A stretch of DNA of 20,165 nucleotides from a virus, in the IMG/VR virus record IMGVR_UViG_3300020183_000574, positions 1 through 20,165 of that record, one strand, 5' to 3'. Each line of letters opens with the position of its first letter. Positions within the stretch are counted from its first letter, which is position 1. The notes beneath the pieces were generated by a model. It worked only from the letters and a program-made list of their open reading frames with translations, was not told the origin of the DNA and made no database searches. The position numbers and the translations under genes are program-made. Of the stretch, positions 6,234 through 18,519 are shown piece by piece.

Positions 6234-7085
6234 ATGGCTATTTCTATCTCTAATGCCTTTGTTACATTGTTCGATAGCGAAGTGAAGCAAGCCTATCAGG
6301 CTCAACGCGCACTGGCCGGCATTACTCGCGAGCGTACCAATGTCGAAGGCTCGACTGTTAAGTTCCCCAAGATTGGCAAAGGCACCGCCTCTGTCCGTAT
6401 CCCTCAAACCGATGTGACGCCTCTCAATGTGACCTATTCCCAGGTCACTGCGTCGATGACCGACTACATTGCGGCTGAGTATTCAGACATATTCCACCAG
6501 CAGCGCGTTAATTTTAACGAGCGTCAAGAGCTGGTGCAGGTTGTCTCGGGTGCTATTGGCCGTCGTATGGATCAGGTCGTGCTCGACGCACTGGCAGCTG
6601 CTTCTTCGACTGGCACTGTTGCTAAGACGATCGCAGATGACGGCTCGACCGGTGGTAACTCAAACCTCAATGTCGGTAAACTCCGTGCCGCCAAGAAGTA
6701 TCTTGACAGCAAGAATGTGCCGATGGAAGGTCGCTCGATCGTTATTCACGCCAACAACTTGTCGGCCCTTCTCGGTTTGACTTCCGTTACCAGCCAAGAC
6801 TTCAACACTGTTAAGGCCCTGGTCAATGGTGAGCTCGATACCTTCTTGGGCTTTAAGTTCATTACGCTTGGAGATCGCGACGAGGGTGGCTTGCCCCTTT
6901 CGGGCGCCGACCGGACTGTTTATGCCTTCCATCGCGATTCCGTCGGAATGGCGATTGGCATGAACCAAACCAGCCGTGTTGACTATATCCCTGAGAAAAC
7001 CTCCTTCCTGGTCGCCTCGATGTTCAGCGCCGGGTCGGTTGCGATCGACTCAGAGGGCATTGTCAAGATCACTTGCACAGAGTAA
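6234..7085 (+). CDS. Major capsid protein
   Basis: This 283-residue protein is predicted to have the HK97 capsid fold. The N-terminal arm (1-40) leads to VKFPKIGKGTASVRIPQTD (42-60), then the long-helix segment from YIAAEYSDIFHQQRVNFNER to VLDALAAAS (78-124). The later parts SRVDYIPEKTSFLVASMFSAG (247-267) and AIDSEGIVKI fit the family of capsid proteins found in small podoviruses. It is shorter than T7 gp10A (345 residues) and has no recognisable cleaved leader. The codon usage is less GC-biased than its neighbours (many GTT, ACT and GCT codons), as often seen in highly expressed phage capsid genes. AAAGGAAA lies ahead of the ATG. Confidence 0.88.
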   Translation: MAISISNAFVTLFDSEVKQAYQAQRALAGITRERTNVEGSTVKFPKIGKGTASVRIPQTDVTPLNVTYSQVTASMTDYIAAEYSDIFHQQRVNFNERQELVQVVSGAIGRRMDQVVLDALAAASSTGTVAKTIADDGSTGGNSNLNVGKLRAAKKYLDSKNVPMEGRSIVIHANNLSALLGLTSVTSQDFNTVKALVNGELDTFLGFKFITLGDRDEGGLPLSGADRTVYAFHRDSVGMAIGMNQTSRVDYIPEKTSFLVASMFSAGSVAIDSEGIVKITCTE

Positions 7086-10508: not shown

Positions 10509-12788
10509 ATGGCCGAGCGACTTCCAGTTTATAGACAGCGAGGGGTGCAAATCGACCCGTATCGGGCCGCTGATTTTTCGCCTTTGATGCGCGAGAGCAG
10601 GAATTTACAACAGGCCCAGGGTAAGGTGCTCGATCGCGTTATTGACTATGCTACCAAGATCGGGCAACAAGAGGCCGTCCAGGCAGGCCGCGAGTCTGTA
10701 GTAGGAGTAGAGCAGGCCAAGGCCGTTCTTACCCAGGCGAAGGAAAAAGGCACGCCGCGCACGCTTTTCGATCGCGCCGCTTATGAACAGGCTAATGAGG
10801 TCCTGGCTCTCGAGCTCGAGAACCAGGGCCGGTCGATGTTCTCCCAAAAGATTAGTCAGTACAAGCAGGACCCCAACGCCGACCCGATCAACTTCCTGGC
10901 CGAGACTGGTGACATTGCGCTTGGCTTTGATTCGCTCACCTCGATGCTCGATCCGAAGATCCGAGCTCGCGTTTCAGCTGGACTGCAGCGCACAAGAGAC
11001 ACGGCGTTTCTCGAGATCTCCGAGGTATATAACGACCGCGTTGCCAAAGAGATGCAGGCCAAGGCGGTCAGGGGCGTCTCGCAGCGGGTCGATGACATTG
11101 CCAGGCTCGGAGCTTCCGGCAAGACGACCGCAGAGAATGAGCTCTTCCTAGAGATCAATGATCTTCGGAAATTCGCAATTGCCGGCAATCTTGGCCGAGT
11201 CGACACTGAGCGAAACATCATCGCCGCGGTGGAAAACTTCCATATCGCCAGGCTCCGCAAAGAATATGAAAAATCGCCTAACAAGGCTGCGTTCTTAAAA
11301 TCGGTTCAAACCGACTTGGGCAAGGGCCCGGTCGGAAACTTGTTCGACGAAAAGGGTGGCCCGATCAAGACGGATCGAATTACCCGCGGCATTGACCCTG
11401 CAAAGATTAACGCCCTGGTCAATGAGTTTGAGGCGGACCTTCGAGCTCGAGACGCGCAATTCCGGGCGCTGCGCACCGAGGTTAAGGGCGACATCACAGA
11501 ATCGATGCGCATTTTTAGCTTGGGCGCGATCCCCGATCAGGCAGTGGTCAGTGACATTCAGCGCCGCGTCGCAGCTCTTGGAGCTGGTGCCGGCGAGGAT
11601 CTTATCCGCCAGGCTAATTATTTGGGCGTGCTGCGCCAACAGTCCATTGCATTTAGCAAGATGAATCAGGCGCAGCTCGGTGACTGGATTCGCAACGCCG
11701 AGCAGCAAACCGCGGGGGGCGCGAACATTGAGCAGGCCATGCTGATGGATGTGGCCCGGAAAGCATTTACCGGGCTGCGCACCGACCTGGAAAAGGACCC
11801 GGTCTCGAGGATGAATCGCACCGGGTTTGCGGAGGTTAAGACGCTGAATTTTGGCGTGTTTGCCGGTGCCACTACGCAAGAGCAATTTGACGCTGCAAGC
11901 GCTCAATTTACTGCGCAAGTAAAAGAGAGGATTAGCCAGTCCAAAGCTTTTGCCGCGACGCAGGGCTTAAAAGAGCCAAAATTTTTGTCGAGTGATGAAG
12001 CTGCTTTGTTAAGCTCAACTATTGAAAACTCAACAGTGAATGGACAGCTTGCACTTATTCGCACCATAAACATGGCATTTGGGAAAGACACCCGTTTGCT
12101 TATGCAGGAAATTTCTCAAACTTCCTCAGAGCTTGCCCATGTTGGTGGCTTGGCCAATGCTGGTGCCAGTAATAAAACCATGGTCGATGCGCTCAACGGG
12201 ATCAGGCTTGCTAAAGAGGGCGTCAAACCATTTGAAGGTGCTGGCGACGCATCGTTAAAGAAAAACATTTTGGCTGAGCAGCTTGGTGGCGCTTATCTCT
12301 ACGCGCCCAGAACGCGGCAGGCAATCGTCAAGACCGCTGATGCAATTTATCTTTCTCGGTCTATCGGCATGGACAAAACAGTTTTTGACGCCGATCTTTA
12401 TCGTCAAGCATTCCAGGAGGCAGCTGGCGGCATAATGTACAAGGATGGTCGGATGCGCGGCGGGATCATCGAGTACCGCGGAATCAAGCTCGCCATCCCC
12501 AGCACAGTTCCACAAGACGATTTTGAGGACATCATCGACGAGGCGACTCTAGAAGATTTTCAAGCAGCTGCAGGATCGATGCCGAAAGATGAGAAGGGCA
12601 GGCCATATACTCTCGAGCGTTTGCGTAAGGCATATCTTGTTTCGATGGACAACGAAAAAGCGATTGTGTTTTATGACAACCCAACTAAGAAATCAAACCC
12701 AGTAGCTTTCGGGGTTGAAGATGGCCAGCCCTTGATATTGGATTTAAGAGTATTGTCCAGTCGAGTTATTGACCGGAAGAGACGATGA
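10509..12788 (+). CDS. Internal virion protein, T7 gp15-like position
   Basis: This 759-residue, mostly alpha-helical protein has no recognisable catalytic motif. The start MAERLPVYRQRGVQIDPYRA, then MRESRNLQQAQGKVLDRVID (27-46), resembles the opening of internal core proteins in podoviruses related to BPP-1 and T7. Long helices rich in Ala, Glu, Arg and Gln dominate residues 30-450. The C-terminal part (about 600-700), with GGAYLYAPRTRQAIVKTADA and MYKDGRMRGGIIEYRGIKLA, is a distinct compact segment. By position it is the gp15 equivalent, expected to form the ejection tube. From about 11,940 the DNA becomes more AT-rich, which may mark a recombination joint. No clear Shine-Dalgarno; translation is probably coupled. 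Confidence 0.65.
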   Translation: MAERLPVYRQRGVQIDPYRAADFSPLMRESRNLQQAQGKVLDRVIDYATKIGQQEAVQAGRESVVGVEQAKAVLTQAKEKGTPRTLFDRAAYEQANEVLALELENQGRSMFSQKISQYKQDPNADPINFLAETGDIALGFDSLTSMLDPKIRARVSAGLQRTRDTAFLEISEVYNDRVAKEMQAKAVRGVSQRVDDIARLGASGKTTAENELFLEINDLRKFAIAGNLGRVDTERNIIAAVENFHIARLRKEYEKSPNKAAFLKSVQTDLGKGPVGNLFDEKGGPIKTDRITRGIDPAKINALVNEFEADLRARDAQFRALRTEVKGDITESMRIFSLGAIPDQAVVSDIQRRVAALGAGAGEDLIRQANYLGVLRQQSIAFSKMNQAQLGDWIRNAEQQTAGGANIEQAMLMDVARKAFTGLRTDLEKDPVSRMNRTGFAEVKTLNFGVFAGATTQEQFDAASAQFTAQVKERISQSKAFAATQGLKEPKFLSSDEAALLSSTIENSTVNGQLALIRTINMAFGKDTRLLMQEISQTSSELAHVGGLANAGASNKTMVDALNGIRLAKEGVKPFEGAGDASLKKNILAEQLGGAYLYAPRTRQAIVKTADAIYLSRSIGMDKTVFDADLYRQAFQEAAGGIMYKDGRMRGGIIEYRGIKLAIPSTVPQDDFEDIIDEATLEDFQAAAGSMPKDEKGRPYTLERLRKAYLVSMDNEKAIVFYDNPTKKSNPVAFGVEDGQPLILDLRVLSSRVIDRKRR

Positions 12789-15700
12789 GCTTCGTATACG
12801 ACGATCTTCGACAAATCCCTAACATCGGCGGCATTGCGCCTGGCGGCGAGGACACCGGCTTCGTTGAAAACTTTAGTGCAGCTAGTGAAGCTCTCAAACG
12901 AACAGCTCAAAGTAATTCCAGGGCCATAAACCTGCAAGGCGAATGGCAACCAATCGTTGATGATATTCAAGCTAAAACTGGAAAGAAATTTTTTAACCCT
13001 GCAAATGTTCTAGGCGGATACCAGGCCAGCTCGGAATCAGGGGCCAAGCAGTACAACTACTACAGCAAGCAAGTTCTTGACTATGTGAAAAATCGGCCGG
13101 ACCTGTTCCCCGATTATCAGATGACATCGGACGAGTCGCTGTTCGAGTCTGCCAAGAAAAAAGCCATCAAGGCAAAAGACATTAGCGAAGATGTGGCGGC
13201 AAAGCAGACCTTTGCAGGATTCTTGGGAGAGATGTCTGCGGGCGCTGTATCTGTTCTTTCAGACCCGGTGCAGCTCGGTGCAATAGGTGTGGACCTGCTG
13301 TATACACGCGGCGCAACATGGACCGCTATGAAAGAGATATTTTTTCAATCGATTGTCTCTGCTGGATCAGAAGCTATCGTTCAAACCGAAGTAAGAGACT
13401 GGTACAAAGAGCTCGAGCTGCCCTATGACTGGACAACTTTTGCAACTAATGTCGGCACAGCTGCGGTAGGCGCTGGCGTAATTACTGCCGGCGTGCTCGG
13501 TGCCAAGCCTGCTGTTCGTTTTACTAAAGATCAAATTGTCAAGGGCATTGAAGTGCTCGGCAAGTACAAGGCCAACAGAGATGGCGTCCCGTATAAGATA
13601 GATTCGCTGGTCAAAAAAGTTAAGGAAATCGTCGACGACGAGGCGAGTATAGCCTCTGCCAATCGCATTAAGGATGACGCCGGAGACCTAGAGCACAATG
13701 TCCGGGTGAGCAGCGCTTACCGCGCCGTGGTCGAGAATGATGTCTCCAAGCTGCCCAACAACTTGCCCCAGGGCGAGCGTGAGCCAATCAGGGACATTAA
13801 CTATCACGACCGGATAAACAGCCAGGTTTTTTCTTACAAGCCCAACGAGCTGCTGGTCGATGCTGAGCTTTTCCAGTTTAAATCGGGCGGCGACATTATG
13901 GGCGTGACTGAGCGCTTGCAAGGCATTACGAGCTGGGACCCGATCAAAGCGAATACCGCGATTGTCTTTGAGTTCGCTGATGGACGGACATTTATCGCCG
14001 ACGGACACCAGCGCCTCGCCCTGGCAAAGAGACTGCAAGAAGCAGATCCGACGCAGGATATTCAGATCAATGCCTTTAAGCTGCGCGAGGTCGATGGATA
14101 CACTCCGGCCGAAGCGCGAGCTGTAGCTGCAGGCAAAAACCTGGCCGAGGGCAGTGGCACGCTACTGGATGCAGCCAAGATACTTCGCGATGCTCCCGAA
14201 CTAGTCAAAACTTTGCCACCGCGGTCCGTCTTTGTGCGCCAGGCGCAGGATCTATCGAATCTCTCGCCCAATGCTTTCATGGCCGTGGTCAATGACATTG
14301 TGCCGCCCAACATGGCCTCACTGGTCGGGCGATACATTCCCGACCCGGATGAGCAGCTCTCGATCCTAAACCTACTCAAGCGCCTCGAGCCGGCCAATAT
14401 GACTCAAGCCGAGCAGATTGTGCGCCAGGCGCGTGAAGCTGGATTCGCAAGAGCTGCAGAGCAGGGTGGACTATTCGGCGATGAGCTCATGGCCGAGAGC
14501 CTTTTCTTAGAGCGGGCCAAGATTCTCGACAAGGCAATAAAGGAAATCCGCAAGGACCGCGACCTATTTGCGACGCTGGTCAAAAATGCCAGTGAGATTG
14601 AAGAGGCAGGGAATACCCTAGCCAAATTAACGAACCAGGAAAAAGAGGAAATCTATGGCAAAGCCATTGCAATCATCCAAGCCAACGCAAATACAAAAGG
14701 GCCAATCTCAGAAGCTCTCACCCGAGCGGCCCAAAACTGGAAAGAAACTGGCGGAGCCAAAGCTCAAGACATTGTCCGCGACTTTACCGAAAGAGTCCGA
14801 AGAGCGATTGAGAGCGGCGATTACGAAGGGATTCCAAATGGCGGAGATCGCGGCGATTTCACAAGTGAGGCGCAAAGCAATCGATTCTCAGAACCGGGCG
14901 CAGACGAGCTAGGTCTATTCGACACAGGTCCAGGGTCTAAAGGCGCAGAGCGCCAGGGCGAGCAGCTCGAGGGCGATCTTCGTGGCGAGATGCCCAACAA
15001 CGGCCGGCCCATTACTGTCGATGAGTATGTGGCCAAATCGCTCAATGAAGAGGATATTGCCAAGCTCAATCCGGATGCGCAGCTGGTGCTGCGCAATCTT
15101 TACCAGGATGCGGCGCTGCGCAAAGAGGCATTCGATAGAACTAATGGCGAGATTGCAGACCTGGTAAGTGGCAAGTATATGCAGGCGGATCTCAAGGGAT
15201 CGCCTCGAGCTGTAGAGAAAATAATCCTCGACTATGAGGGCGATGCGTCGCAGATCAAGGATCTGCTACGGGCCACGATTGTCGTGGATAACTTCCAGCA
15301 AGCCGGCGTCGCTTTGCGCGAGCTGCGCAGCCGCTATCAGGTTTTGGATGCAGGCTTTCGCAATCTACTCGACCCGAATGTAAAAGCCCTGGATGGTGGT
15401 TATCGAGACATCAAGATGAATGTCAACATCGATGGCCATATCGCCGAGGTGCAGATCACGATTCCGGAGTTCTCATCTGCGAAAAAGCAGATGCACTCTT
15501 TGTATGAAGAGGTGAGAACGATTGAAGCAACAGTGCTGGCAGAGCGTCGTCAACCGACGGCTGCTGAAGCTGCCAGGATTGACGAGTTAAATGTTCGGAT
15601 GGCTTCTAGTTATGACGCAGCTTTTGAAGCAGCTCTGAGCCGTTCAAATTCTGCTTTGTCGATTGGGGCGCCGTTGCGCCTGGCTGAATCCGGAGGGAAA

Positions 15701-16027
15701 GGTCTTGGTGAGCCTTTGTCCCAAGCGGCGCAGTATAGGGTCTCAAAACCCTCTACCGAGCCTAGCGTGACCGGTATGCCCTCGACATCGAGAAACTCAA
15801 CATTCTTGGACGATTTCATAAGTGATACCTCTGACCTAAGTTTAGCACGAATTGATACCGGTAGCAAAGCAAATCAAGAGCTCATGGACCTGGAGGTGCC
15901 AATCGGTGAAAAAATTGACCCGGTAACAGGTGAGCGAGTCGCTGAGATTGCCACAGTCCGGGACATTCTTAACGATTTCGACCAGGATAGATCAATGCTT
16001 GATCGATTGATAGGGTGCGTTAAATGA
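12785..16027 (+). CDS. Large polyvalent internal virion protein: ParB/DdrB-like and RelA/SpoT-like domains
   Basis: This 1080-residue protein is likely carried in the capsid and ejected. Residues 1-130 are helical, and hydrophobic stretches lie at about 143-200 and 221-244 (TNVGTAAVGAGVITAGVLGA). Residues 345-416 are a ParB/DdrB-like domain: SYKPNELLVDAELFQFK, WDP, then ADGHQRLALAKR, where the GHQR box is the family mark. A helical DdrB-associated region follows to about 625, then a low-complexity linker (680-735). Residues 800-895 resemble a RelA/SpoT nucleotidyltransferase: LKGSPRAVEK, IKDLLRATIVVD (Asp826), GGYRDIKMNV (Tyr873) and GHIAEVQIT (Glu888). No lytic transglycosylase motif like that of T7 gp16 is apparent. 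ATGA overlap at both ends. Confidence 0.7.
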   Translation: MSFVYDDLRQIPNIGGIAPGGEDTGFVENFSAASEALKRTAQSNSRAINLQGEWQPIVDDIQAKTGKKFFNPANVLGGYQASSESGAKQYNYYSKQVLDYVKNRPDLFPDYQMTSDESLFESAKKKAIKAKDISEDVAAKQTFAGFLGEMSAGAVSVLSDPVQLGAIGVDLLYTRGATWTAMKEIFFQSIVSAGSEAIVQTEVRDWYKELELPYDWTTFATNVGTAAVGAGVITAGVLGAKPAVRFTKDQIVKGIEVLGKYKANRDGVPYKIDSLVKKVKEIVDDEASIASANRIKDDAGDLEHNVRVSSAYRAVVENDVSKLPNNLPQGEREPIRDINYHDRINSQVFSYKPNELLVDAELFQFKSGGDIMGVTERLQGITSWDPIKANTAIVFEFADGRTFIADGHQRLALAKRLQEADPTQDIQINAFKLREVDGYTPAEARAVAAGKNLAEGSGTLLDAAKILRDAPELVKTLPPRSVFVRQAQDLSNLSPNAFMAVVNDIVPPNMASLVGRYIPDPDEQLSILNLLKRLEPANMTQAEQIVRQAREAGFARAAEQGGLFGDELMAESLFLERAKILDKAIKEIRKDRDLFATLVKNASEIEEAGNTLAKLTNQEKEEIYGKAIAIIQANANTKGPISEALTRAAQNWKETGGAKAQDIVRDFTERVRRAIESGDYEGIPNGGDRGDFTSEAQSNRFSEPGADELGLFDTGPGSKGAERQGEQLEGDLRGEMPNNGRPITVDEYVAKSLNEEDIAKLNPDAQLVLRNLYQDAALRKEAFDRTNGEIADLVSGKYMQADLKGSPRAVEKIILDYEGDASQIKDLLRATIVVDNFQQAGVALRELRSRYQVLDAGFRNLLDPNVKALDGGYRDIKMNVNIDGHIAEVQITIPEFSSAKKQMHSLYEEVRTIEATVLAERRQPTAAEAARIDELNVRMASSYDAAFEAALSRSNSALSIGAPLRLAESGGKGLGEPLSQAAQYRVSKPSTEPSVTGMPSTSRNSTFLDDFISDTSDLSLARIDTGSKANQELMDLEVPIGEKIDPVTGERVAEIATVRDILNDFDQDRSMLDRLIGCVK

Positions 16028-18519
16028 GCTTTCGCGAGTGTATTGACAATGGCGAGAATGAGGGCAAGCTAACGGCCGACCAGGCTGCGCGGGCCGGTGG
16101 CTTGTTCGACGAGCTCGAGGCGCAATACGCCCAACGCATGACTTCTTCCGAGGCAAGCGCCCAAGCTGCCAGGGATACCTTTGACGCACTCAAGAAAGAG
16201 GCGATTGAAAAGCGCCGTGTCCGGATGTTGCAAATTCGCAACTGGAAAGAGATAACTAACAATCTTCAGCAGTACGCCGGCGGGACTGACCTGGGCAAAG
16301 CTGCCCAAGCCCTGCTCGATCGAGACGAGTTTGCCAAGTATTCCAATGTCGAAGCGCGCCGCAAAGCGGTGCTCGGCCAAATCTATTCCAAGATGGACGA
16401 TGTCCTGGCCACCTTCCGACGCCGCGGCGCAACAGGGTACCTGGGCAATAAGGCCACAGCTCGCGACCTGGTGCGTGAAGTATTTGGCGAGGACACGGGA
16501 AACCAGTCCGCAAAGCAGCTCGCCCAATCCTGGACCGAAGCAGCCGACTACGCCAGGCAGCGATTCAATAAAGCAGGCGGAGCAATCCCCAAGCGCAAAG
16601 ACTGGGGAATGCCTCAGATTCATGAGTCGATGCTGGTGCGCAAGGCCGGCCGGGATGAGTGGAAAAACTTTATTCGCGATAGGCTCGACGCCGAGAAGAT
16701 GATCGACGAGCGCACCGGATTGAAGTTCACGCCGGAACGCCTCGAGCTCGCGCTTGACGAGGTCTATGACTCAATCGCAACCGAGGGTTGGTCTAAGGTA
16801 AAACCCTCGGGTATGGGTGGCGGTAGATCCATGGCCGGCCGCAGACAAGATCATCGGTTTTTATCCTTCCGCAATGCCGACGCCTGGCTTGAGTATCAGG
16901 AGCGCTTTGGCAATCCCGAGCCCTTTGCGACGATGGTCAATCACTTGGAGGGCATGGCCAGGGACATTTCAATGATGGAGGTCCTAGGGCCTAACCCTAA
17001 TGCCACTGTTAGATTCGTTGAGCAGACAGTTCTTAAAGACGCCAATATGCGCCAGGCGAGCGATCCGTCGGGCAACTATGTTGACCGAGCTCGCAGCCAG
17101 CTTGGGCAGTTCGACTCAATGTATGCAATCCTCAATGGGTCGACCATGTCGCCCGTGGATGGCACAGTGGCCAGGACCTTTGCCGGTGCAAGGCAGATTC
17201 TTCAAGCGGCCCAGCTTGGCGCTGCTGCGGTCTCGGCCGTTACCGACATAAACTTTCAGCGCATTGCAGCAAAAACCTCCGCAATCCCTGCGGCGCGAGT
17301 AGTCAAGCGGGTGATCGAAAACATCATGCCTATGGGCGTCGATGAACGCGGTCGCCTGGCTTCTCGCCTTGGCCTGATAGCTGAGAGCTGGACAAGTCTC
17401 TCTTCGGCGCAAGCGCGGTTTGTAGGCGATGTCACTGGCCCGGAAATCACGCAGCGGATCAGCGACACAGTGATGCGAATAACGCTGCTCTCGCCCTGGA
17501 CGCAAGCCGGGCGGTGGGCATTCGGCATGGAGTTTATGGGCTACATGGCCGACCAGGTGGGCAAGAAATTTACCGAGCTCGACAAGCCCCTGCAGGACAC
17601 AATGCGCCGCTACGGGTTTGGCCCGGATAACTGGGACATCGTCCGCAACGCCGGGCTCTACGATTACGATGGGTCCAAGTTCATGCGACCCGAAGAGATT
17701 GCCGAGATTACTGGATTGGGCGATGGCCAGGCTGACCGCATGGCCACCCGCTTCCTGGAGATGATCCAGTCCGAAACCGAGTTTGCGGTGCCCTCGAGCT
17801 CGGTGCGTGGCCGCACCATGCTGGTCGGCGAATCCCGGCCAGGCACCTTTATCGGTGAGGTGGCCAGGTCCTTTGCCATGTATAAAAATTTTCCGGTTAC
17901 GCTGCTGCACACCCATGTAATGCGCGCCGTCAACCAGGAAGGCGCTGCTAAAAAGGGCGCCTACATGGCCGACCTGATTATCTCGACGACCCTTTTTGGG
18001 GCCCTGGCCATGCAGCTCAAAGAGATCAGCAAAGGCCGGGACCCGCGCACAACGCTCACCCCGGAGTTTTGGGGCGCTGCAATGTTGCAGGGCGGCGGAC
18101 TTGGAATCCTGGGCGACTTCCTGTTTAACGATGTCAACCGCCATGGCGGCGGACTCGAACAGACCATTGCCGGCCCGGTGGTGGGATTCCTGGATGACAC
18201 GCGCCGCCTAACGATTGGCAACCTGCAGGAGCTCGCCACCGGCAAGGACACAAACTTCGCCCGCGAGGTTATCAGCTACGCCGGCCGATACACGCCAGGC
18301 GCCTCGATATGGTATCTGCGCCTGGGCCTGGAGCGCCTGGTCCTGGACCAGCTGCAGACCTGGGGCGACCCGGAAGCTAAGCAGAAGATGCGGCAGCTCG
18401 AGGCGAAATACCGCCGGGAAACCGGGCAAAGATACTGGTGGGCGCCAGGAGATACCTCGCCCGACCGGGCTCCCGACTTTGAGGCGATTACCGCCGAACC
18501 ACCACCACGGAGGAAATGA
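16024..18519 (+). CDS. Internal virion protein, last of the ejection set (T7 gp16-like position)
   Basis: This 831-residue protein belongs to a widespread phage family often found as the last internal protein of podoviruses or fused within larger polyvalent proteins. Residues 1-75 are a charged helix, and 130-330 hold conserved patches such as GMPQIHESMLVRKAGRDEWK (195-214) and FGNPEPFATMVNHLEGMARD (295-314). The second half is the most family-like: PWTQAGRWAFGMEFMGYMA (491-509), TEFAVPSSSVRGRTMLVGES (585-604) and RPGTFIGEVARSFAMYKNFP (605-624). Hydrophobic stretches at 645-663 and 683-702 could contact membrane. No enzyme motif is evident. It overlaps the previous gene by 4 nt. Confidence 0.65.
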   Translation: MSFRECIDNGENEGKLTADQAARAGGLFDELEAQYAQRMTSSEASAQAARDTFDALKKEAIEKRRVRMLQIRNWKEITNNLQQYAGGTDLGKAAQALLDRDEFAKYSNVEARRKAVLGQIYSKMDDVLATFRRRGATGYLGNKATARDLVREVFGEDTGNQSAKQLAQSWTEAADYARQRFNKAGGAIPKRKDWGMPQIHESMLVRKAGRDEWKNFIRDRLDAEKMIDERTGLKFTPERLELALDEVYDSIATEGWSKVKPSGMGGGRSMAGRRQDHRFLSFRNADAWLEYQERFGNPEPFATMVNHLEGMARDISMMEVLGPNPNATVRFVEQTVLKDANMRQASDPSGNYVDRARSQLGQFDSMYAILNGSTMSPVDGTVARTFAGARQILQAAQLGAAAVSAVTDINFQRIAAKTSAIPAARVVKRVIENIMPMGVDERGRLASRLGLIAESWTSLSSAQARFVGDVTGPEITQRISDTVMRITLLSPWTQAGRWAFGMEFMGYMADQVGKKFTELDKPLQDTMRRYGFGPDNWDIVRNAGLYDYDGSKFMRPEEIAEITGLGDGQADRMATRFLEMIQSETEFAVPSSSVRGRTMLVGESRPGTFIGEVARSFAMYKNFPVTLLHTHVMRAVNQEGAAKKGAYMADLIISTTLFGALAMQLKEISKGRDPRTTLTPEFWGAAMLQGGGLGILGDFLFNDVNRHGGGLEQTIAGPVVGFLDDTRRLTIGNLQELATGKDTNFAREVISYAGRYTPGASIWYLRLGLERLVLDQLQTWGDPEAKQKMRQLEAKYRRETGQRYWWAPGDTSPDRAPDFEAITAEPPPRRK

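Follow-up and report, generated by a model that had tools for sequence, protein, structure and literature searches.

Tas1/Apk1, a PAAR effector of the Pseudomonas aeruginosa type VI secretion system (T6SS; PDB 6OX6), is a toxic synthetase of the RelA/SpoT-homologue (RSH) family that makes (p)ppApp and depletes ADP/ATP (PMC12691689, PMC11782079). Synthetase (SYNTH) toxin domains are also found on capsid-associated MuF proteins of temperate phages, as in the Apk2-IapK-Aph1 systems, which include the small alarmone hydrolase Aph1 (PMC12226406, PMC11699363); a biochemical characterisation of the MuF-SYNTH toxins is available (PMC12226406), as is a description of a MuF-family ADP-ribosyltransferase that also notes alarmone-synthetase homologues (PMC11699363). 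In 2017, phage polyvalent proteins combining DdrB-ParB and RelA/SpoT domains were reported from Helicobacter prophages, with early injection predicted for them, and the same account mentions MuF proteins that bear zeta-like kinases (Iyer et al. 2017, PMC5512222). The window analysed here, that is, the entire IMG/VR record IMGVR_UViG_3300020183_000574 (G000; a genome fragment of 20,165 bases), encodes on its + strand a 1080-residue protein (12785..16027) located in an ejection-protein cluster, residues 741–950 of which (15005..15634) are a SYNTH domain having Tas1/Apk1 as its closest solved relative. We consider it reasonably probable that a podovirus of ~35 kb uses this protein as a polyvalent ejection protein and that the protein's ParB-like domain and interchangeable C-terminal cassette, here the Tas1/Apk1-like SYNTH domain, would enter the host with the DNA, the cassette then crippling host synthesis. 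RelA/SpoT domains are already known from polyvalent and MuF proteins of phages; three features appear to be new here, namely that the chassis is a podoviral ejection protein, that SYNTH and Zeta modules replace one another in otherwise near-identical genomes, and that no immunity gene lies next to the cassette. The polyvalent proteins of 2017 contain the same domain classes as the window protein, but neither podoviral ejection-cluster proteins nor cassette exchange between near-identical genomes is described in the accessible part of that account (PMC5512222), and a literature search combining ejection proteins with toxins, its coverage excluding most subscription papers, returned no earlier account of such an arrangement.

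The identity of the domain is established at the levels of both sequence and fold. Residues 741–950 matched Tas1 in the PDB by phmmer (E=1.6e-7), and a profile built from 15 relatives (A2) matched it at E=5.8e-20, the next entry being E. coli RelA at 0.03. The AlphaFold2 model of the domain, for which profile A2 also served as input, is of high confidence (pLDDT 94.1, pTM 0.87) and retrieved Tas1 as the first Foldseek match (E 2.6e-8, TM 0.62/0.67), followed by SaEAS (8VX3), an exported synthetase, and then by Rel, RelP, and SAS1; all 45 PDB matches at E<=1e-3 are RSH synthetases. An earlier note on this DNA had proposed, from the order of motifs, a RelA/SpoT-type nucleotidyltransferase region within the internal protein; the profile search, the residue conservation described below, and the predicted fold, which is confidently that of an RSH synthetase and not an unrelated one, all bear this out. 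A chance motif match is ruled out, as the domain scored 212.8 bits with a profile made from remote relatives only, compared with a top score of 6.1 bits for 1000 shuffled copies (906 reported). As a single sequence, the window domain was matched weakly by Pfam RelA_SpoT (E 0.012, 16.4 bits, cut-off 27), and NCBIfam and single-sequence Pfam searches gave nothing decisive on it, while proteins from the corresponding slot in related phages exceeded the Pfam cut-off (L112, 44.1; L120, 40.5; and L128, 37.4 bits). The top match in the viral library is an uncharacterised phage protein of 1078 residues (67% identity); the matches listed also include a phage protein that bears the name Tas1. The HD hydrolase and regulatory domains of full RelA/SpoT, whose absence had also been suggested, are indeed missing, the 1080-residue protein having no Pfam match to HD, TGS, or ACT at E<=10, and a full (long) RelA/SpoT/Rel was rejected on this ground; a MuF toxin was likewise rejected, with no MuF match in the same protein, and a Patescibacteria record (L032) encoding an ordinary long Rel was set aside. 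The specific kinship with Tas1/Apk1, the preceding ParB/DdrB-like domain, and the exchangeability of the cassette go beyond what the earlier note had recognised.

The motifs on which that proposal was based lie where it had placed them (LKGSPRAVEK at residues 803–812, KDLLRATIVVD at 825–835, GGYRDIKMNV at 871–880, and AEVQIT at 887–892), with one difference in detail from the D-L-x-x-x-R strand: the arginine following Asp826 is Arg829 at +3 (D-L-L-R), the spacing of Tas1 (R330), and not at the +5 of canonical RelA. The domain and Tas1/Apk1 share the K-x3-R-x3-K, D-L-x-R, GY, and E-x-Q motifs. In 38 non-redundant, highly divergent homologues, K804, K812, D826, G884, and E888 are invariant, position 873 is aromatic throughout (35 Tyr, 3 Trp), and Q890 and H904 are each kept in 35. 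Asp826 (codon 15260..15262) is predicted to bind the metal ion (FaRel2 D90, RelSeq D264 class), Tyr873 (15401..15403) to stack on the acceptor base, and Glu888 (15446..15448) to be the catalytic glutamate corresponding to Apk1 E382. The ATP-binding residues reported for Apk1 are R330, K353, N370, and E382 with the following Gln, printed Q382 (PMC12691689). In our alignment, in which the Tas1 chain index equals the published numbering minus 21, R829 corresponds to R330 and E888 to E382, Q890 is the counterpart of the Gln two positions beyond E382, and that of K353 is ambiguous, possibly Arg859. The SYNTH domain is under purifying selection, with pairwise dN/dS values of 0.05–0.18 that are similar to those of the remainder of the protein. 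The invariant catalytic residues and the low dN/dS together argue for a functioning enzyme.

The slot of the domain is exchanged among related phages; the swaps described here were all found between the genomes of relatives, the window phage itself being a partner in none of them. The gene immediately downstream encodes an 831-residue protein, and of 80 loci with this gene, 78 have a readable upstream open reading frame (ORF), in which an iterated profile detected a SYNTH-type module in 51 cases; three modules of the canonical type pass the Pfam RelA_SpoT cut-off unaided. In 8 other relatives, the SYNTH slot contains a Zeta_toxin kinase (Pfam E 2e-15 to 1e-22), and the same P-loop was recognised by eye in further ones; these slot holders, Pfam-confirmed and by-eye cases together, are L066, L067, L073–L076, L080–L082, L096, L101, L104–L106, and L108, in which the kinase takes up the last ~430 residues encoded by the ORF that precedes the gene for the 831-residue homologue. 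The exchange is clearest between L083, whose SYNTH module is found directly by profile A2 (E 4e-14), and L073, whose Zeta-like module was assigned from a P-loop read by eye and is closely similar to that of the Pfam-confirmed L075. The two proteins are 93–100% identical over residues 1–720 (95–100% in the part matching the N-terminal body, residues 1–329), 18–48% within the module, and 100% along the tail, and 819 of 821 residues are identical in the product of the next gene; at the DNA level, the alignment is interrupted at the module (829 versus 940 bp) and then resumes. Similar breaks are seen in L072/L076 (943 versus 976 bp) and L097/L100 (766 versus 872 bp), one module of each pair being, however, of an unassigned 'GWRIIAF' type. 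Within the window clade, the SYNTH alleles of L005 and L009 differ at a pS of 0.57 and the adjoining tails at only 0.07, so that this SYNTH looks like a recombined module. Since the replacement of SYNTH by Zeta between near-identical flanks is a signature of polymorphic-toxin cassettes, the slot is suggested to behave as such a cassette on a constant chassis.

Several other slot contents were observed. The 'GWRIIAF' modules (L071, L072, L077, and L100) represent a further cassette type with the pattern 'IRDSYRFKT ... GWRIIAFDLRM ... VEWYLP', linked to SYNTH through iterated profiles only, and a Pfam scan of two of them (L071, L077) gave no match. L131 has an apparent metallopeptidase-like HELAH motif at the C-terminal slot in place of SYNTH or Zeta, and some relatives (SI2, L085, and L103) have no recognised cassette there. 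It seems to us evenly poised whether the arrangement is general, that is, whether in many environmental podoviruses the ejection protein would serve as a polymorphic-toxin chassis carrying a swapped cassette, either an alarmone synthetase of one of several subfamilies or a Zeta-toxin kinase, between the ParB-like body and the tail for delivery with the DNA, with no immunity gene next to it and the phage's own toxin being tolerated or otherwise restrained, by a separately encoded small alarmone hydrolase in some members.

The chassis consists of an N-terminal body with a hydrophobic/glycine-rich stretch (residues 1–329; 12785..13771), a ParB/DdrB-like domain (modelled as residues 330–570; 13772..14494), the SYNTH domain, and a conserved C-terminal tail (..DQDRSMLDRLIGCVK; 15905..16024), all on the + strand, the tail being common to relatives irrespective of the preceding cassette. 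Residues 358–700 match phrog_10691 (E 3e-66), the AlphaFold2 model of residues 330–570 (pLDDT 83) has Noc/ParB as its top Foldseek matches (E 5e-6), and Pfam ddrB-ParB exceeds its cut-off in the relatives L015 and L031. With two effector-type domains, the ParB fold and SYNTH, the protein qualifies as polyvalent. Phage SI2 encodes a homologue, DVVG_00008 (792 residues; 39.7% identity over residues 302–673), in which the ParB domain is present and the SYNTH domain is absent. The gene lies 3′ of the tail-tube genes, between the genes for a 759-residue gp15-like internal protein (10509..12788, +; assigned by cluster position only, with no PHROG match) and the 831-residue virion protein (16024..18519, +), and occupies the same position as SPN1S_0018. 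The 831-residue protein belongs to phrog_684 (E 2.6e-180), aligns to SPN1S_0019 and SI2 DVVG_00009 across the greater part of its sequence, and was matched in 112 phage records by tblastn. The cluster order and neighbouring genes are those of the T7/P22/epsilon15-type podoviruses, for whose ejection proteins a peptidoglycan hydrolase domain (in T7 gp16) but no toxin-type enzyme is reported in the accessible part of the relevant account (PMC8954989). Because of this synteny with ejection-protein clusters, the 1080-residue protein is, by analogy, probably ejected with the phage DNA. A (pro)phage-like cluster of the same order, encoding an 855-residue lysozyme-type protein, an 1108-residue protein with ddrB-ParB and SYNTH, and an 841-residue protein, was found in a Rhodospirillales metagenome-assembled genome (MAG; L031, 1192-9623), giving a hint of alphaproteobacterial hosts.

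In the predicted mechanism, the 1080-residue protein would be packaged in the virion, and its ParB-like domain and cassette would enter the host together with the DNA. In the cytoplasm, the SYNTH cassette would transfer pyrophosphate from ATP to the 3′-OH of a purine nucleotide, for which we tentatively favour ADP/ATP in view of the (p)ppApp synthesis carried out by the nearest solved enzyme, although the choice of acceptor (adenosine, guanosine, or tRNA) is not readable from sequence. Nucleotide pools would thereby be drained, an alarmone raised, or both, and host synthesis crippled at the start of infection, presumably to the benefit of the phage. If this is correct, the infection opens with a delivered enzyme resetting or draining the host nucleotide pools ahead of the reading of any phage gene, which would tie alarmone biology and toxin cassettes to the ejection proteins, themselves poorly understood; the role of an ejection protein after DNA entry also becomes directly testable by point mutants. 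Four observations weigh against this mechanism. The canonical His position is occupied by Lys877 in the window group (Asn370 in Tas1), leaving the substrate preference uncertain. No immunity gene adjoins the window cassette on either side, unlike in the MuF toxins and Tas1; none fits between the SYNTH gene and the 831-residue gene because the two overlap, and the upstream gene overlaps as well, raising the question of how a toxic synthetase is packaged without an adjacent antitoxin. With the proteins of the SPN1S ejection cluster, the 1080-residue protein has its position in common but no significant similarity in sequence, and a small alarmone hydrolase, considered below as a possible antidote, is missing at the corresponding locus of G001, which is the window's nearest relative.

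An unlikely alternative is a late action of the enzyme within the cell that produces the phage, such as host shut-off or a lysis/lysogeny signal, its fusion to an ejection protein being incidental or regulatory. Late genes are abundantly expressed ahead of lysis, and the hydrolase encoded in 8 close-relative records would damp the activity in the producer, both of which accord with such a role. However, the same SYNTH family recurs in unrelated phages on virion proteins, namely on the portal protein (L016, L024, and L027), on a lysozyme/ParB polyvalent protein (L015), and on a protein encoded just 3′ of the portal gene in Bordetella phage PHB04; virion delivery is argued chiefly from this recurrence of the fusion on ejection, portal, or portal-adjacent proteins, and the occupation of the same slot by Zeta kinases also speaks against late action.

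It is quite improbable that the cassette, as an active enzyme, modifies tRNA 3′-CCA ends in the manner of the toxSAS-type FaRel2 or CapRel, stopping host translation at entry. These enzymes have the same fold class, with CapRel (7ztb) and FaRel2 (8pu1, 8pu3) present in the Foldseek list, and the acceptor-site residue is non-canonical in the window (Lys877); at this position, L022/L024/L027 share Asn with Tas1, and the L112–L132 group has His. The sequence and fold are, however, nearer to Tas1, a nucleotide enzyme, FaRel2 being ranked only 46th (E 3e-3). That the domain is a structural or inactive RSH remnant merely helping to build the DNA-ejection channel is very improbable, for despite the replaced His, the Pfam score of the window domain alone, and the presumable viability of the relatives with no recognised cassette, the catalytic Asp, Glu, and both Lys residues have stayed invariant across highly divergent sequences, and a swap for a catalytic kinase fold is unexpected of a structural element.

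Returning to delivery of the toxin with the DNA, the hydrolase is suggestive as an antidote to the SYNTH cassette, but is not claimed here as part of the system because of its patchy presence. A PF13328 (HD_4) small alarmone hydrolase is encoded in the 8 close-relative records, including G009 (a contig with identical ends of 123 bases), where it lies ~11 kb downstream of the SYNTH gene on the opposite strand and conserves H31, H55-D56, E59-D60, and D119; wherever the layout was read, it sits in a leftward non-structural operon, a region before which the window fragment stops. It is missing in 48 of 49 further wider-clade records, including the long SYNTH-positive contigs G048, G063, and G076, and this, with its absence from the G001 locus, led us to reject a universal antidote hydrolase; such hydrolases occur in ~0.9% of phage records (446 of 50,697, tblastn). 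The window group differs from the MuF toxins in its ParB-bearing ejection-protein chassis and in that any hydrolase is distant and not universal. In PHB04, the hydrolase is two genes past the SYNTH gene, and it is also near SYNTH in L025/L026. The PHB04 segment (L035, 3332-8037) contains the portal gene, the SYNTH-bearing gene, a 69-residue ORF, the hydrolase gene, and a calcineurin-like phosphatase gene; the order of SYNTH gene, 69-residue ORF, and hydrolase gene resembles apk2-iapK-aph1 (PMC12226406), and the segment possibly represents toxin, immunity, and hydrolase genes in a cultured phage. An LPD29 protein is encoded near the hydrolase (L047 4706-5293; G009), and a similar-looking protein just 5′ of the hydrolase in L025 (2545-3048).

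The remainder of the window corresponds to the structural half of a podovirus, with small and large terminases, a head-tail connector, a major capsid protein, and tail tube proteins, followed by the internal proteins of 155, 759, 1080, and 831 residues and then by a fibre-like gene. The small (284-694) and large (651-2201) terminase genes mutually overlap, and the major capsid protein (6234-7085) shows a weak match, below the cut-off, to the N4-gp56 capsid family.
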